A stretch of 26,001 bases of DNA. Source: a virus. The notes beneath the pieces are model-generated. The model was given only the letters and a program-made list of their open reading frames with translations, searched no databases and was not told the origin of the DNA. Below are positions 3,638 through 22,817 of the stretch, one piece after another (within the stretch, counting starts at the first letter, position 1; each line of letters starts with the position of its first letter). The position numbers and the translations under genes are program-made. The DNA lies in the IMG/VR virus record IMGVR_UViG_3300001846_000113, positions 1 to 26,001 of that record; one strand, given 5' to 3'.

Positions 3638-6600
3638 TAATGTAATCCTTTTTGAATATCGTCAAATAACCAATCAAGATACCATACATTTTGAAATGGT
3701 ATTAACCTACGCACATTTTTTGCAGTGTGATGGTTATATTGATTTCCACCAACATCATATAAAATGTCAAAGATGTTATATATCTGTCCACCTGTTGGCC
3801 CAAAAATTGTTCCTGCTTTCCATCTATTAGAAGATCCAAATGGTTTACTTTCTCCAAACATTGGGCCAATTCCAATTCTGTTATCTGTTAAAGTTTCTAT
3901 TGCTTTATTAATATCTGTATAAATTCCTGCTAATCCAGATCTATCAAAAGCATTAAGTAATTTAGTTGTTAATGATTGTTTTGAGTAATCTCTACCAAAT
4001 CTAAATTCTGTATATATTTTATCTATAAGCATACCAGATCCCATTAGCAAAATAGAACCAAACATAAAATCTAAATCTTTTTCTTGCATACCTCTCATTA
4101 ACATTCTTTGAGTAGCTGATATTGCAAATTTTTTAAACTGTGCAAATGTAGAACCTAATTCTGTACTCATCCATAATGGAGTATCTCCTAAACCTGGAGT
4201 AACAATAGTAATATTAATATCTTTATTAAGTGCTGCACCAAAAGCATCAACTGCTGCTTCATCTTCCCATTTAGCAGTATTAGCCATAAAATTATGTTTA
4301 GTTTTTTCACCATGTTTTTCAAATTGATTAGCTATTCTTCTAGCCATATCTTGATTTATACCAGAAGATGATAATGCAGTTTTCCATTTATCTGGTAAAG
4401 AACCTTTAGTCCATCTAATAGAGTCTTCAATAATTCTAGAACCAATAGTAACAGATGCCATAGACTTAGCCATTTCTGTCCATCTAGACATAAGGTTAAC
4501 ATACATAAAATTAAATGCAGAAGCCTTACCTACACCACTTTCTAATTTAGATGCTAAACCAAACATATCACCAACGTCTGCAAATAACATTGCTCTTTGA
4601 CCTGTAATCATATCAACAGCTTCACCAAATGATTGAGCTTCTTTTTTACCCATATTGTAAATTGTTTTACCATCTAAAAAATCAGAAAACATTTCAAACT
4701 GTGTTTTAAATCCTCGTTTAATACCAGATGTCATTACAATTCTAGCTACATCCGGTATTGCTGCTGCAAATCCAGTAAGCATAGTTAATGCATTATAATG
4801 TTTCATAGTTCTCATTGCTACCGAAGACCATGCATGAGGATTAGAAGGTAATCCATAAGTACCTCTAATTAATTCAATAGCAGCTTCTAGATCTGTTAAT
4901 GTTTGATCTCGTTCTTTTATAACAGCTGCTCTTTCTTTAGAACCACGTTTAAGTCCTACAAGTTTTAAATTATATTCGTTTGCTACTGTCATTAATCCAG
5001 CATTAAAACCTGACATTTCACCATCTTCAATAAATTTAATACCTAATCCATTAGGATCTCCATATTTTCTAGTAAGAAGAATATCTGGTATTATTTGTCT
5101 AGCATATGTTTTTTGTAAAGCAAAAATATCACTTATAATAAAACCACCATCTAATAATTCTTCTTGAGCTATTCTATCTAAATTTAATTCTCTAGCTCTA
5201 ACAGCTCTAGCATATCTTGGTCTATTAAATGCATATCTTTCTGTAAGATCACCAACAGTTTTTTCAAATCTTACAAATGGAAAATGACCAGATAAATCTT
5301 TTACTAATTGATTTAATTTAGACTCATTAATTAAAACACCAGCTCTTTTAAAATGTCCTCTAATAATATCTTTAAATCTAGCTGGATTTTTTTCTATAGC
5401 ATTTTTAACATAGATAATATTAATATAATCATTAACACCTCTTGTTTTAACATTTTTTAATCTTTGATTTAATTCATCAATTGTTTTTTCTATTCTAGAT
5501 ATGTTATATGTTTCTTGTACACCATCTACTTTAGAAGTATATGTTTTAGAAGTTTCACCTTTTTTTCTCATAGATTTTAATTGAGATTCCCAAAATCTAA
5601 GTTCAGAAATAATAGGCATTTCTCTAATTTTTAATTGTTGTATTTGTTCAAACAATGGGCCATATACATGTTTTTGTGTATGTCTAGCTGCAGCAGATAC
5701 CTCAGGTACTGTATGATTAAAACCATTTAATCTAGCTTTAGTAACTTCATGACTAAATTGATCTAATGACATTCTATCCATTAAACCTGGTTTAGTATGT
5801 TGTGTTAATTTATTATGTAATGCTAAACCTAAATTAGTACCAGGTACTTTTTCTGTACCTTGGATTCTTTTAATATAATTAATATATTCATCTTTTACTA
5901 ATTTATGAGATTCTATTTCACCTACTCTCATCATACGCATATCTGTTTCAATAGATTTACCTGTAGATTGAAATCCCCATTCTTTAGTATTTTTTAATTT
6001 TAATAAAGGTGTATCTAAAAGATCACCCATAATAATTTTAGCAGTTAAAGAAGTTTTTTGTTTTATAACTCTAAATACAGGAGTCCATGGCCCATCTTCA
6101 CCAAAAATATTTAAATTAGATTTTATAAATCCTTCGCCTTCCATTTTTTCTTTAACTGTTTGTCTAATAGGTTTAGATATACCTTCAGCTCCAACTCCAG
6201 AAGGTTGTGGATCTGTTTTAGATGGATTTACAAATGTACCATCAATAGCAATATCATCTGTTTTAATAGGTTGTTGATCTTTTTTTCCAGCTATCCAATA
6301 ATCATCAGCTTCTTTTAAAGTTTTTTGTGTTTTAATACCTGTTGGTGCAGATAATTTATTTAATATAAAAGGTACTGTATAACCATATGCTGCAACACCA
6401 GCAACATAACTATCATCTCTCATTGGATCTAAATTTTGTTTTGCAATTTCTTCAGCTAGTAATGCAGATCCAGCAATTTTAGCTGCTTGTCCAAATTTAG
6501 TAAAAAATAATAATGTAGAAGGATCTAATATAGCCCCTGTTATTCTACCTAAATAATACCAAGGAGATGCATAATTAGTATCTTGATGAGCTTGTAATTT

Positions 6601-13277: not shown

Positions 13278-13309
13278 AAAAAAAATGACTTGGGGGATTT
13301 CTCCCCCAA
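13278..13309 (-). terminator. Rho-independent terminator between capsid and tail modules
   Basis: On the minus strand a perfect 8-bp stem TTGGGGGA / TCCCCCAA with the loop GAAA is followed by GTCA and then eight T. Stem arms lie at 13302-13309 and 13290-13297. It starts 13 bases after the stop of the 83-residue gene. It probably ends or attenuates the abundant capsid transcript, with read-through feeding the tail genes. Confidence 0.85.
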
Positions 13310-13321
13310 ATCGAATTAGCT

Positions 13322-13573
13322 TTATGCTAATTTTGCAGTTGTTACAGTAGTTGCACCACTTGCTGAAGTAACAGTAAGTAGATCTGCTTCTGGAGTTCCA
13401 CCGATTCCGATAGAACAAAGAATTAAATCACCTTGTTTCAATTCAGCATATGCGCTGTTAAAGTAACCACTAGCAGCTACAGTTGCGATAGCATCTCCGT
13501 CAGTGTAAAACCAAAGAGAGTTGCCACCCATCTGAGCTACCTTTTTGATTGGATTATCAGTTGCGTAAGCCAT
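13322..13573 (-). CDS. Small capsid-adjacent protein, possible decoration or cement protein
   Basis: 83 residues, beta-rich in appearance: MAYATDNPIKKV at the start, then SLWFYTDGDAIATVAASGYF (about 19-38) and ELKQGDLILCS. Small proteins with this pattern (W.Y.dgD....aaGYF....l..GD.i) lie next to major capsid genes in many phages; their role has not been named with certainty as far as I know. It has a strong ribosome binding site (AAGGAG, eight bases before ATG on the minus strand) and is followed by the terminator, so it is expected to be made in amounts like the capsid protein. A decoration or head-stabilising role is inference from position and size. Confidence 0.65.
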   Translation of the reverse strand: MAYATDNPIKKVAQMGGNSLWFYTDGDAIATVAASGYFNSAYAELKQGDLILCSIGIGGTPEADLLTVTSASGATTVTTAKLA

Positions 13574-20640: not shown

Positions 20641-20779
20641 TTATTTCCTCATATGTTGCTCTGCAACCATTAGGAACAGCAGCAGATAGTTTTATCATAC
20701 CATCTATATCATTTTTTGCTGTGTAGTAAATCTCTTTTTTAAGAATATCAATTTCCCAAATTCTACCAACAAAGAACAT
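20576..20779 (-). CDS. Small protein of unknown function
   Basis: 67 residues: MFFVGRIWEIDILKKEIYY, then AKNDIDGMIKLSAAVPNGCR near 21-40 and a charged, lysine- and glutamate-rich tail. The first 48 residues look like a folded domain. The tail after NEK shares DNA with the 29-residue ORF in another frame, so one of the two reading frames may be fortuitous there. The start overlaps the stop of the upstream gene (TAATG). Not recognised. Confidence 0.55.
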   Translation of the reverse strand: MFFVGRIWEIDILKKEIYYTAKNDIDGMIKLSAAVPNGCRATYEEINEKTFKEKTQIKSESTTEKKV

Positions 20780-20928
20780 TATTTCTTTTTAGCAGTCTTA
20801 GCAGATTTCTTAAAAGCTTTTGATGTTGGTGCCCCTTTAGATCCAGGCTTTCTCATTCTTTCACCAGAACCAGATTTAATTCTTTCTCTTTTCGCATGTA
20901 TGTTAGCATACAAACCTCTTTTAGCCAT
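20779..20928 (-). CDS. Small basic phage protein, MAKRGLYANIHAKRxRIKxGSGE family
   Basis: 49 residues starting MAKRGLYANIHAKRERI, then KSGSGERMRKPGSKGAPTSK and a lysine-rich end; 17 of 49 residues are K or R. I recognise this sequence type as very widespread in marine phages; its function is not known to me, though an unfolded basic protein suggests nucleic acid contact. The chosen ATG has a perfect ribosome binding site (AAGGAG, six bases upstream). A longer TTG reading is rejected. Confidence 0.75.
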   Translation of the reverse strand: MAKRGLYANIHAKRERIKSGSGERMRKPGSKGAPTSKAFKKSAKTAKKK

Positions 20929-20938
20929 TTTTTTCTCC

Positions 20939-21211
20939 TTATGATTTTTTATTATTATTAGCAAAACTTCTAGCAGCAGCTACCGAACCAAAGCCCCATG
21001 CTTTTAATGCTAATGCTTTTCTTGTAGGTCTGCCTTTGCTATCTTTCATTGGGCCCTTCATTCCGGCAAACCTCGCAGCAAATGATATTCTTCTTGGATT
21101 CTTTCCAGATTTTACAGGTGCTTTTAAATTAGAACCTTCTGTTCTTTTGAAATATGCTCTACCTCTAGCATTTAAACCACCTTTTGGATTTTGATATACT
21201 TTAGCAACCAT
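20939..21211 (-). CDS. DUF6321-like small basic protein
   Basis: 90 residues: YQNPKGGLNARGRAYFKRTE near 6-25, then LKAPVKSGKNPRRISFAARF near 33-52, AGMKGPMKDSKGRPTRKALA near 53-72 and a C-terminal LKAWGF segment. The order GGLNa.GR...kr..g.nLk.Pv......rr.sf.aR..gm.Gpm.d..G.pTrkaLaL..W is one I recall as DUF6321, found in phages and bacteria. The family name is from memory. Function unknown. The start overlaps the upstream stop (TAATG). Confidence 0.7.
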   Translation of the reverse strand: MVAKVYQNPKGGLNARGRAYFKRTEGSNLKAPVKSGKNPRRISFAARFAGMKGPMKDSKGRPTRKALALKAWGFGSVAAARSFANNNKKS

Positions 21212-21372
21212 TATTTGCTATTTTTTTTTCCATAAGGTTTTTTATAAAAATCTTTATTAAAAGGGGAAACTCTATTTTTTGTATTTTTAGGATCATTAGC
21301 TTTAAATGTTAAAGTTTCATCCATTTTAACAACAAACTGTTTCCAAGTATTTTTTAACTTATCTTTTGTCAT
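21211..21372 (-). CDS. Small basic protein of unknown function
   Basis: 53 residues: MTKDKLKNTWKQFVVKMDET, then LTFKANDPKNTKNRV and a lysine-rich end. A strong ribosome binding site (TGAGGAGAATATCATT before ATG) supports the start. It joins the downstream gene by TAATG. Not recognised; one of a run of small basic proteins between the terminase genes. Confidence 0.7.
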   Translation of the reverse strand: MTKDKLKNTWKQFVVKMDETLTFKANDPKNTKNRVSPFNKDFYKKPYGKKNSK

Positions 21373-21579: not shown

Positions 21580-21659
21580 GTTTTATGATTACCTTAGTGT
21601 GTGCTTAAAATCAACCTTGTTGTGTGTGTAACTCCACTAGTCATCTAGACGATGGCGTT

Positions 21660-21710
21660 TTTGCCCCCACCCCTCGTTCCGAGTGGGCAAATAGTCGGTA
21701 CTCTGTACCG
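21660..21710. repeat. Two hairpins just after the small terminase-like gene
   Basis: Hairpin A has outer arms TTTGCCC / GGGCAAA (21660-21666 and 21685-21691) with an inner CTCG-TTC-CGAG stem (21673-21683). Hairpin B is a perfect CGGTAC-TCT-GTACCG (21696-21710). On the minus strand neither is followed by a T run, so they are not standard intrinsic terminators. They could be a transcript-stabilising 3' structure or part of a packaging site; this cannot be decided from sequence. Confidence 0.5.
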
Positions 21711-21717
21711 TCACTTT

Positions 21718-22089
21718 TTAAGAAAGGTCGATGTTAATCTTAATATCCCCTTGGATATTATGTGCTACCTTGTCCGGAGCTCTTAGTCCTACTCTGTCGA
21801 GTATGTCTCTACTTGCTTCGAGTTGGACATACTCTGACCTAGCTCCTGAAGACAGGTCGATAAGTTTCCTACTCGCTGACACTGCGCCTAGTCCAAGTGT
21901 ACGAGCTATTGCTTGTTGCATATAGTTCTGTACTTTTGGTAATCGTAGTGTGCGAGAAGCACTTACACGACCTGCTTCTTCGCTTCCTTTACTTGAATAT
22001 CCTGCAGTTTTAGCTGCTTCCTTTATACTACAACCTGTTGTTACGATGGTATCTACTAGCTTCTTCTGTTTTTCTGTTAGTTCGCTCAT
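21718..22089 (-). CDS. terS: Terminase small subunit-like DNA-binding protein
   Basis: 123 residues. The N-terminal helix-turn-helix region MSELTEKQKKLVDTIVTTGC, then SIKEAAKTAGYSSKGSEEAG near 21-40 and VSASRTLRLPKVQNYMQQAI near 43-62, is the usual opening of small terminase subunits (LT.kQk..v......G.s...AA..AGY........A...L..p.V..yi). The C-terminal half is helical, ending in DKVAHNIQGDIKINIDLS. It would recognise the packaging site and load the large subunit. It is the first gene of the leftward late block and is clearly richer in G+C (27/60 in 21781-21840) than most late genes, so either it was acquired separately or it shares the constraint of the neighbouring structured DNA. Confidence 0.75.
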   Translation of the reverse strand: MSELTEKQKKLVDTIVTTGCSIKEAAKTAGYSSKGSEEAGRVSASRTLRLPKVQNYMQQAIARTLGLGAVSASRKLIDLSSGARSEYVQLEASRDILDRVGLRAPDKVAHNIQGDIKINIDLS

Positions 22090-22119
22090 ATAACGCTTTT
22101 ATTATTCTACCCCTAACTG

Positions 22120-22148
22120 TTCGTAAGGATAAGATTCCTCCTTGTCAA
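22120..22148 (-). promoter_or_regulatory. Candidate promoter for the leftward late block
   Basis: On the minus strand a perfect -35 box TTGACA (22148-22143) is followed after 17 bases by TACGAA (22125-22120), a partial -10 match. The start of transcription would be about 22113, giving a short leader before the small terminase gene at 22089. The inverted repeat TTGTGC-TAC-GCACAA lies about 30-60 bases upstream and could bind a regulator. Confidence 0.4.
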
Positions 22149-22302
22149 GCATTATATTCGCTCTCTTGTGTATTGTGCTACGCACAACACCACATATAGT
22201 AGTATTATTATAGGAGTGTCGACAAGCGACACCCTCTTACCCCAAACGCAATTTTCTCTCTACGCTGACTCCTATGGTCGTCAGCTTAATCGCTAAGGAC
22301 TC

Positions 22303-22333
22303 GCCTGGCAGTTTGCAAAGCAAACTCCTAGGC
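22303..22333. repeat. Strong hairpin with 3-base loop
   Basis: A perfect 7-bp stem AGTTTGC / GCAAACT with loop AAA is extended by GCCTGG / CCTAGGC-side pairing (one C/C mismatch, then six pairs including one G-T). This is 13 pairs in 31 bases. No T run follows on either strand. Confidence 0.75.
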
Positions 22334-22454
22334 ATCCTCCTGCGCTATTGGCTTCGCCTGAGAAACCCCTGCGTTACTCGAAAAGCTTAAACGCTTTTCT
22401 CCGTTACTCAGTATTGCTATGGGGCCCCCACACACACGGAGTTTACTCGCTTGT

Positions 22455-22565
22455 ATCATGAGTTGCTTCGATTTCATTGCCCTTCGCTTCGCTTTCGGCG
22501 AGGAAAAGTGGTCGCACCTTCGGTACAACAACTTTTCGCAATGAAATACGAATTTGCCTCATGAT
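22455..22565. repeat. Nested inverted repeat that can fold into a three-armed junction
   Basis: Outer arms ATCATGAG (22455-22462) and CTCATGAT (22558-22565) pair perfectly. After a small internal loop TTCG/CGAA pair, then ATTTCATTGC (22471-22480) with GCAATGAAAT (22538-22547), a perfect 10-bp stem. Inside are two further arms: 22481-22502 (CGC...GCG type hairpin, GCTTCGCTTTCGGCG) and 22503-22537, closed by GAAAAGT / ACTTTTC with ACC-TTC-GGT inside. It could be a folded RNA or an extruding cruciform. Confidence 0.7.
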
Positions 22566-22576
22566 GACTGCTCGAG

Positions 22577-22601
22577 TAACCAGTGTGTGACACGTTGGTT
22601 A
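22577..22601. promoter_or_regulatory. 25-bp near-palindrome, candidate operator of the rightward genes
   Basis: Half sites TAACCAGTGTG and CACGTTGGTTA with a central T-G-A. Eleven arm positions are opposed, and only two of them (GT against GT) fail to match. It lies 28 bases before the first rightward start codon, a usual place for a repressor or activator site. No matching sigma70 boxes were found next to it. Confidence 0.5.
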
Positions 22602-22628
22602 TTATTAACAATTAACTGAAAGGTAATT

Positions 22629-22817
22629 ATGACAAATAATAGAGTTTTAGAGCTTATGTCTTATTTTAAGATAAGAAAAGACTCTGATAAAATCAAAAGA
22701 GTTGAGGAGTTGGCTATTAAGAGAGATGTAGCTGAATCGGTAGGTAATACTGATGAGGTAAAATTGATTGATAGTGAATTAACTTGTTATGGAGGAGAGA
22801 ATGTCCAAACTAGCTAA
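22629..22817 (+). CDS. First rightward gene, small protein of unknown function
   Basis: 62 residues, charged and probably helical: MTNNRVLELMSYFKIRKDSD, then KIKRVEELAIKRDVAESVGN near 21-40. Not recognised. It has a ribosome binding site (GAAAGG, seven bases before ATG) and overlaps the next gene's start by 17 bases. As the first gene after the structured divergent region it is the likely first product of the rightward transcript. Confidence 0.65.
   Translation: MTNNRVLELMSYFKIRKDSDKIKRVEELAIKRDVAESVGNTDEVKLIDSELTCYGGENVQTS

Follow-up and report, generated by a model that had tools for sequence, protein, structure and literature searches.

The locus between terS and the early genes

We analysed a 26,001-base virus record, IMGVR_UViG_3300001846_000113 (the window, meaning that whole stretch), whose terL is 66% identical to terL of Pelagibacter phage EXVC031P Hodr. 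The feature under study is the 539-base gap at 22090-22628, between terS and the first early gene (Table 1). terS and the late genes run leftward on the minus (late) strand, and small genes run rightward from 22629, a gene map that agrees with the initial annotation, in which this region had been placed as the divide between leftward late and rightward genes.

Between terS and terL lies an HNH gene. The small basic-protein genes of the same interval (20778-21215) lie in DNA that is 70-80% identical to otherwise unrelated marine phages, namely phages of Pelagibacter, Methylophilales and Synechococcus, and contig ends seem to cluster there. Contig ends near terS were considered as a sign of a cos site and set aside, since many of them lie in the stretch from terS to terL, where sharing with other phages is a plausible cause.

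Table 1. Features at and beside the gap, in window coordinates
Feature	Position	Strand	Basis
Second, smaller hairpin cluster directly downstream of terS	21620-21717	-	Sequence; z peak in 26 relatives
terS, terminase small subunit	21718-22089	-	PHROG 51, E 2.5e-12
-10 position of the terS promoter, TACGAA (weak)	22120-22125	-	Distant relatives TATAAT, TACAAT; Hodr TATACT
-35 box of the terS promoter, TTGACA	22143-22148	-	Nearly invariant in alignment of 71 relatives; promoter scan
Hairpin TTGTGC(GTA)GCACAA, C(GNA)G DNA-type triloop	22171-22189	-	Fold, loop scan
Place of module C in close relatives L082, L087 and L090; absent from the window	22190-22215		Alignment, module C catalogue
Hairpin GTGTCG-cttgt-CGACAC	22216-22232	-	Fold
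Domain B, multibranch	22239-22425	-	Folds; closing helices 22420-22425/22239-22244 and 22413-22417/22248-22252
Hairpins inside Domain B	22380-22399, 22295-22339, 22264-22285	-	Folds
Domain A, six stacked helices forming a single long imperfect hairpin	22431-22589	-	DNA and RNA folds, alignment
Domain A, helices 1-3	22583-22589/22431-22437, 22573-22579/22443-22449, 22558-22565/22455-22462	-	
Domain A, helices 4-6	22538-22547/22471-22480, 22531-22537/22503-22509, 22522-22529/22511-22518	-	
First rightward (early) gene; its start region is the end of the array	22629-22817	+	ORF with Shine-Dalgarno GAAAGG

At least seven inverted repeats had been annotated in about 430 bases, and we find at least nine hairpins or closing stems within 22160-22590; the leftmost ~55 bases of 22090-22628 are promoter and leader and lie outside the array. 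Relative to shuffled sequences, the RNA folding energy of the 539-base gap has z = -8.1 on the minus strand and -6.7 on the plus strand, and the DNA folding energy z = -8.4 and -7.9, respectively, with no shuffle folding equally well. When only Watson-Crick pairs were allowed, 22126-22625 contained three of the strongest 250-base windows in the whole 26 kb, and most of the strongest fell in this gap and in the 3' flank of terS. The record's strongest folding window in the same scan (z = -7.1) holds a strong hairpin at 13280-13330, GGGGGAGAAATCCCCC, which is followed by a T run on the late strand, lies between two virion genes and looks like an intrinsic terminator. The annotated contrast in base composition stands in kind, with G+C at 43-49% in the gap (300-base windows) against 25-35% over most of the remaining profiled stretch, although the 52-57% first given is true only of short sub-stretches; the raised G+C spans about 21600 to 22628, terS included, and is wider than the gap. 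A coding reading of the 67-aa ORF at 22328-22531 was set aside: its TTG start lies inside hairpins, and the length of the relatives there varies freely. Searches of the window returned no tRNA or tmRNA.

Position and pairing are conserved, sequence is not

We collected about 70 distinct regions upstream of terS from related contigs, which are mostly metagenomic and reach as far as the cultured Pelagibacter phage Hodr. Nearly all carry, in the same place, a gap of ~350-770 bases, mostly with raised G+C and good folding. Among 26 relatives the mean z is -5.1 at -450 to -250 from terS, and the second cluster reappears as a mean z of -4.3 at +300 to +500 from the terS start. The position of the array is kept and its sequence is not, yet the pairing is kept: whole stems are replaced with both arms still complementary. 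It had been asked at the outset whether homologues would keep the position but lose the pairing; in these relatives compensatory changes preserve it.

The replacements are clearest in the two large domains. The internal loops of Domain A carry the conserved words GCAGTCATCAYGAGGCAAA and CTCRTGATACAAGC, and the stems between these constant words are exchanged wholesale in both arms, as where CTCG/CGAG is swapped for GGTGC/GCACC. The conserved word of Domain A occurred in 58 contigs and solely in company with this terS family; terS was within reach in all except one of them. The closing stem of Domain B covaries as GCAA/TTGC, GCGA/TCGT, GAGA/TCTC and GCAGT/ACTGC beside a nearly constant CCCATA/TATGGG. 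Entire modules are also gained and lost between close relatives, so that contigs whose terS is 98-100% identical have gaps of 433, 437, 539 or ~618 bases. BLASTN searches of phage and plasmid collections with Domains A and B gave no useful match, and in the open-access literature we found no description of the array or of module C. The initial view that no known element explains the whole set still stands.

The late strand appears to fold as DNA

Such compensatory changes, together with the very low folding energy of the late strand, would suit a large structured noncoding or leader RNA made from that strand, of the sort seen in GOLLD or ROOL, which the array resembles in being phage-borne, several hundred bases long and built of many helices. 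The late strand also exceeds the other strand slightly in stability and in G.U content, and it carries the strand-specific words AGCGA and GCGAC. In RNA, G.U is far better tolerated than A.C, and one-sided changes in a structured RNA are expected to yield more G.U than A.C. We therefore counted such changes strictly, using only helices with two flanking pairs retained on each side and RNase P as the positive control; these counts supersede earlier wobble counts on loose alignments, which were noisy. RNase P gave 540 compensatory (two-sided) changes, 204 G.T and 49 A.C, whereas the arrays, counted over distinct contexts by the same rules, gave 58, 15 and 19, with no excess of G.T over A.C.

Loop types provide evidence independent of the wobble counts. 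Across 43 nonredundant arrays, C(GNA)G triloops on stems of at least four Watson-Crick pairs occur at 22 late-strand places, in 17 distinct stems and with A, T, C and G all represented at N, against a single mirror C(TNC)G. With module C masked, the ratio is 14 distinct to 1, while over 134 kb of the same phages the two loops are nearly balanced (10 versus 9). The tetraloops typical of RNA are nearly absent from the arrays (4 GNRA and no C(UNCG)G, where the RNase P set has 247 GNRA and 24 UNCG). Loops of the intrinsic terminators of these phages were considered as a further comparison but number only 16, too few for judgement. The stability of GNA loops is familiar from DNA minihairpins in general. 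In the DNA hairpins of phage N4, a three-base loop with C:G closure, a 5' G and a 3' A is required for extrusion, and SSB melts the opposite-strand hairpin and spares that of the C(GNA)G type (PMC4496689).

Based on the wobble counts and loop types, it appears probable that the late strand has been selected to fold as single-stranded DNA. One observation counts against this conclusion, in that internal G.U is slightly commoner in late-strand folds (0.081) than in early-strand folds (0.063), as it is in real RNAs. A structured RNA, one of the options first offered for this region, is nonetheless disfavoured by both sets of counts and by Rfam, in which neither the window nor its relatives gave anything credible at the gathering score or at relaxed E-values; in these respects the array is unlike GOLLD and ROOL. 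Moreover, terS has its conserved promoter on the downstream side of the array, the scan showed no conserved late-strand promoter at the 5' end of the array, and one of the modules lives in replicons with a single-stranded phase. We consider the RNA reading unlikely.

A further reading needs no function: template switching may perfect imperfect palindromes and leave false compensatory changes behind. Such a process would give strand-neutral compensation, which is what we see; however, it leaves unexplained the fixed position in ~70 contigs, the conserved internal-loop words, the strand-specific loops and the module common to several replicon types, and we regard it as very improbable. Most likely, the array is a conserved set of modular hairpins selected in the single-stranded late strand, and not, or not mainly, in RNA.

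A conserved terS promoter and the early genes

Between the array and terS there is a conserved sigma70-type promoter for terS, recognized by its boxes in the alignment and the promoter scan. A terS mRNA starting there would not carry the array, since the promoter lies downstream of it. Of the suggestion that the region is the main control region, a control element is thus present in the form of the nearly invariant TTGACA box for terS. Many relatives carry a conserved word just before TTGACA, CATATAGTATTGTGAGT(N)6-9ACTAAAGT, at about -105 to -70 of terS, which is possibly an activator site for this promoter. On the early strand, the promoter scan and the relatives revealed no conserved rightward sigma70 promoter inside the gap or at its right edge.

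Among the early genes tested in a near-complete relative (34 kb) are those for SSB, a RecE/YqaJ-type exonuclease and a further recombination protein; none of those tested matched a polymerase, primase or replicative helicase. This tested part of the early gene set fits a reliance on the host.

A small terminase often binds close to the gene that encodes it, and the array adjoins terS, with the second hairpin cluster behind it and the HNH gene between terS and terL. These facts would suit a pac or cos site that TerS recognises at the start of packaging, with the hairpins flanking terS helping terminase assembly. Such a site leaves unexplained, however, the strand-specific C(GNA)G loops and the occurrence of module C in inoviruses and plasmids that have no terminase; furthermore, contigs run through the region without a fixed physical end, and the related phage MEP301 has terS inside an operon, without such a gap. 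A packaging site, another of the options first offered, seems unlikely.

Module C links the array to filamentous phages and plasmids

In close relatives, a further module lies between the array and the terS promoter, with the form GCGAC..GATCGTTACCC..TAGAGCC..GTCGC and a length of ~75-120 bases with flanks. Its consensus is GCGNN-RGGATCGTTACCC-loop-GGG-stem-AC..stem-hairpin-TAGAGCCY-NNCGC. The window itself lacks this module C, which the alignment shows as a deletion, and keeps Domains A and B. Among 71 terS regions it is present in 24, with nine variants in addition. Its outer stem, P1, comprises 578 Watson-Crick, 1 G.T and 5 A.C pairs; the last position takes all four Watson-Crick types, and the variants include GCGAT/ATCGC, GCGAC/GTCGC, GCGCA/TGCGC, GCGTT/AACGC, GCGTC/GACGC, GCGAA/TTCGC and GCGCG/CGCGC.

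The module C pattern also matches contigs without a terminase. Pf1 and other Pf phages contain it, and in inoviruses with Zot and/or Rep it lies on the same strand as the zot/rep genes in 24 of the 24 records tested, which we take to be the virion strand. This agreement also fits an mRNA leader, since every inovirus gene is on the virion strand. In the IncW plasmid R388, module C sits beside ssb and other minus-strand genes, on the opposite strand; given the oriT and leading region of R388, the transferred strand is presumably the one that bears module C. About 100 other plasmid records contain the module. Inoviruses and conjugative plasmids both have an obligatory single-stranded DNA phase. 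In the tailed Sphingopyxis phage VSN-002, module C is antisense to the ERF/YqaJ genes, and in an Agrobacterium plasmid it is antisense to neighbouring early or leading genes, as in the tailed phages and R388, while a copy in a Caulobacter plasmid reads in the same direction as the gene next to it.

Module C is absent from Rfam. It merits a family of its own as a structured DNA element that is widespread among filamentous phages and the plasmids of alphaproteobacteria and also occurs in some tailed phages (loci L336, L378, L377, L470, L469 and ~100 more). In R388 (L377, 2590-3100), the leading-region gap that bears module C forms a row of palindromes rich in G+C and recalls the phage array.

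The antisense placement bears on a reading in which the hairpins are promoters of the N4 or Frpo type (cruciform promoters), where folded DNA lets RNA polymerase start the rightward early genes. A transcript primed at module C would enter the early or leading genes to which it is antisense in tailed phages, R388 and the Agrobacterium plasmid; the loop sequence is of the N4 type, and the right edge has no conserved early promoter of the ordinary kind. Against this, module C shows no evident -35/-10 pair, a transcript in inoviruses would be antisense to all genes, and the long proteins of the window have no Pfam match. A T7-type RNA polymerase (PF00940) was unmatched in seven near-complete genomes, but the control genomes were unmatched too. 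N4 virion RNA polymerase promoters share with the array C(GNA)G triloop DNA hairpins that resist SSB on one strand; unlike it, they are short single hairpins read by a virion polymerase, and none such was recognised here (PMC4496689). Frpo of conjugative plasmids is likewise hairpin DNA on the template strand near leading or early genes, but it has -35 and -10 boxes in its stem (PMC11541004). We saw none in module C, Domain A or Domain B, and the only conserved promoter boxes fall outside the array. Hairpin promoters seem rather unlikely; together with a packaging site they are the chief competitors of the reading proposed below.

A candidate single-strand initiation region

We propose, at odds of roughly one in two, that the array acts in the late strand as a single-strand initiation (ssi/sso-like) region, a reading drawn from sequence comparison. 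In this mechanism the late strand would be exposed during replication or recombination and coated by SSB, while hairpins with hyperstable C(GNA)G loops would stay folded. Host priming machinery would enter at the folded hairpins and lay an RNA primer, from which the complementary strand would then be synthesised toward the early genes. A need for such a site is suggested by the tested early genes of the near-complete relative, which provide SSB, an exonuclease and a recombination protein, while no polymerase, primase or helicase was recognised among them. A replication origin was among the options first raised for this region; of these possibilities, a replication-type ssi site is favoured because a module of the array is common to filamentous phages and plasmids. 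The lack of module C in the window, and of useful plasmid or phage matches to Domains A and B, counts against this proposal.

In the ssi and sso sites of phiX174, G4 and rolling-circle plasmids, single-stranded DNA likewise folds on one strand of a mobile replicon, and the host machinery primes there (PMC5714925); priming in phiX174 uses the primosome and in pT181 RNA polymerase (PMC5714925). The likeness here lies in module C, on the virion strand of filamentous phages and also in a conjugative plasmid; unlike those sites, the array is a row of hairpins in tailed double-stranded DNA phages, and priming is proposed from sequence. By inspection, no motif is shared with the G4 complementary-strand origin (G4 3884-4019), the only ssi type compared, and we therefore use the name ssi-like and not G4-type ssi. 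Not all ssi types require sequence similarity to a characterised site.

More tentatively, and as a conjecture that we would not yet back at even odds, filamentous phages, conjugative plasmids and tailed double-stranded DNA phages may share an unnamed family of single-stranded DNA elements that gives host priming a general point of entry, and which in one clade of marine tailed phages may have grown into a modular, SSB-resistant row of hairpins that acts as a replication origin beside terS.

Compensatory change is usually taken as proof of a functional RNA, and here the wobble counts and loop types point to DNA; together, the two counts offer a cheap general test of structured RNA against structured single-stranded DNA. 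Through module C, the complementary-strand origins of Pf1 and other filamentous phages would be connected with the leading regions of plasmids and with tailed phages. If the ssi reading is true, it would suggest that a clade of double-stranded DNA phages passes through a stage with an exposed strand and depends on the host for priming. In that case it would also supply one candidate site for the start of replication in phages related to the SAR11 phages, which are abundant in the ocean.
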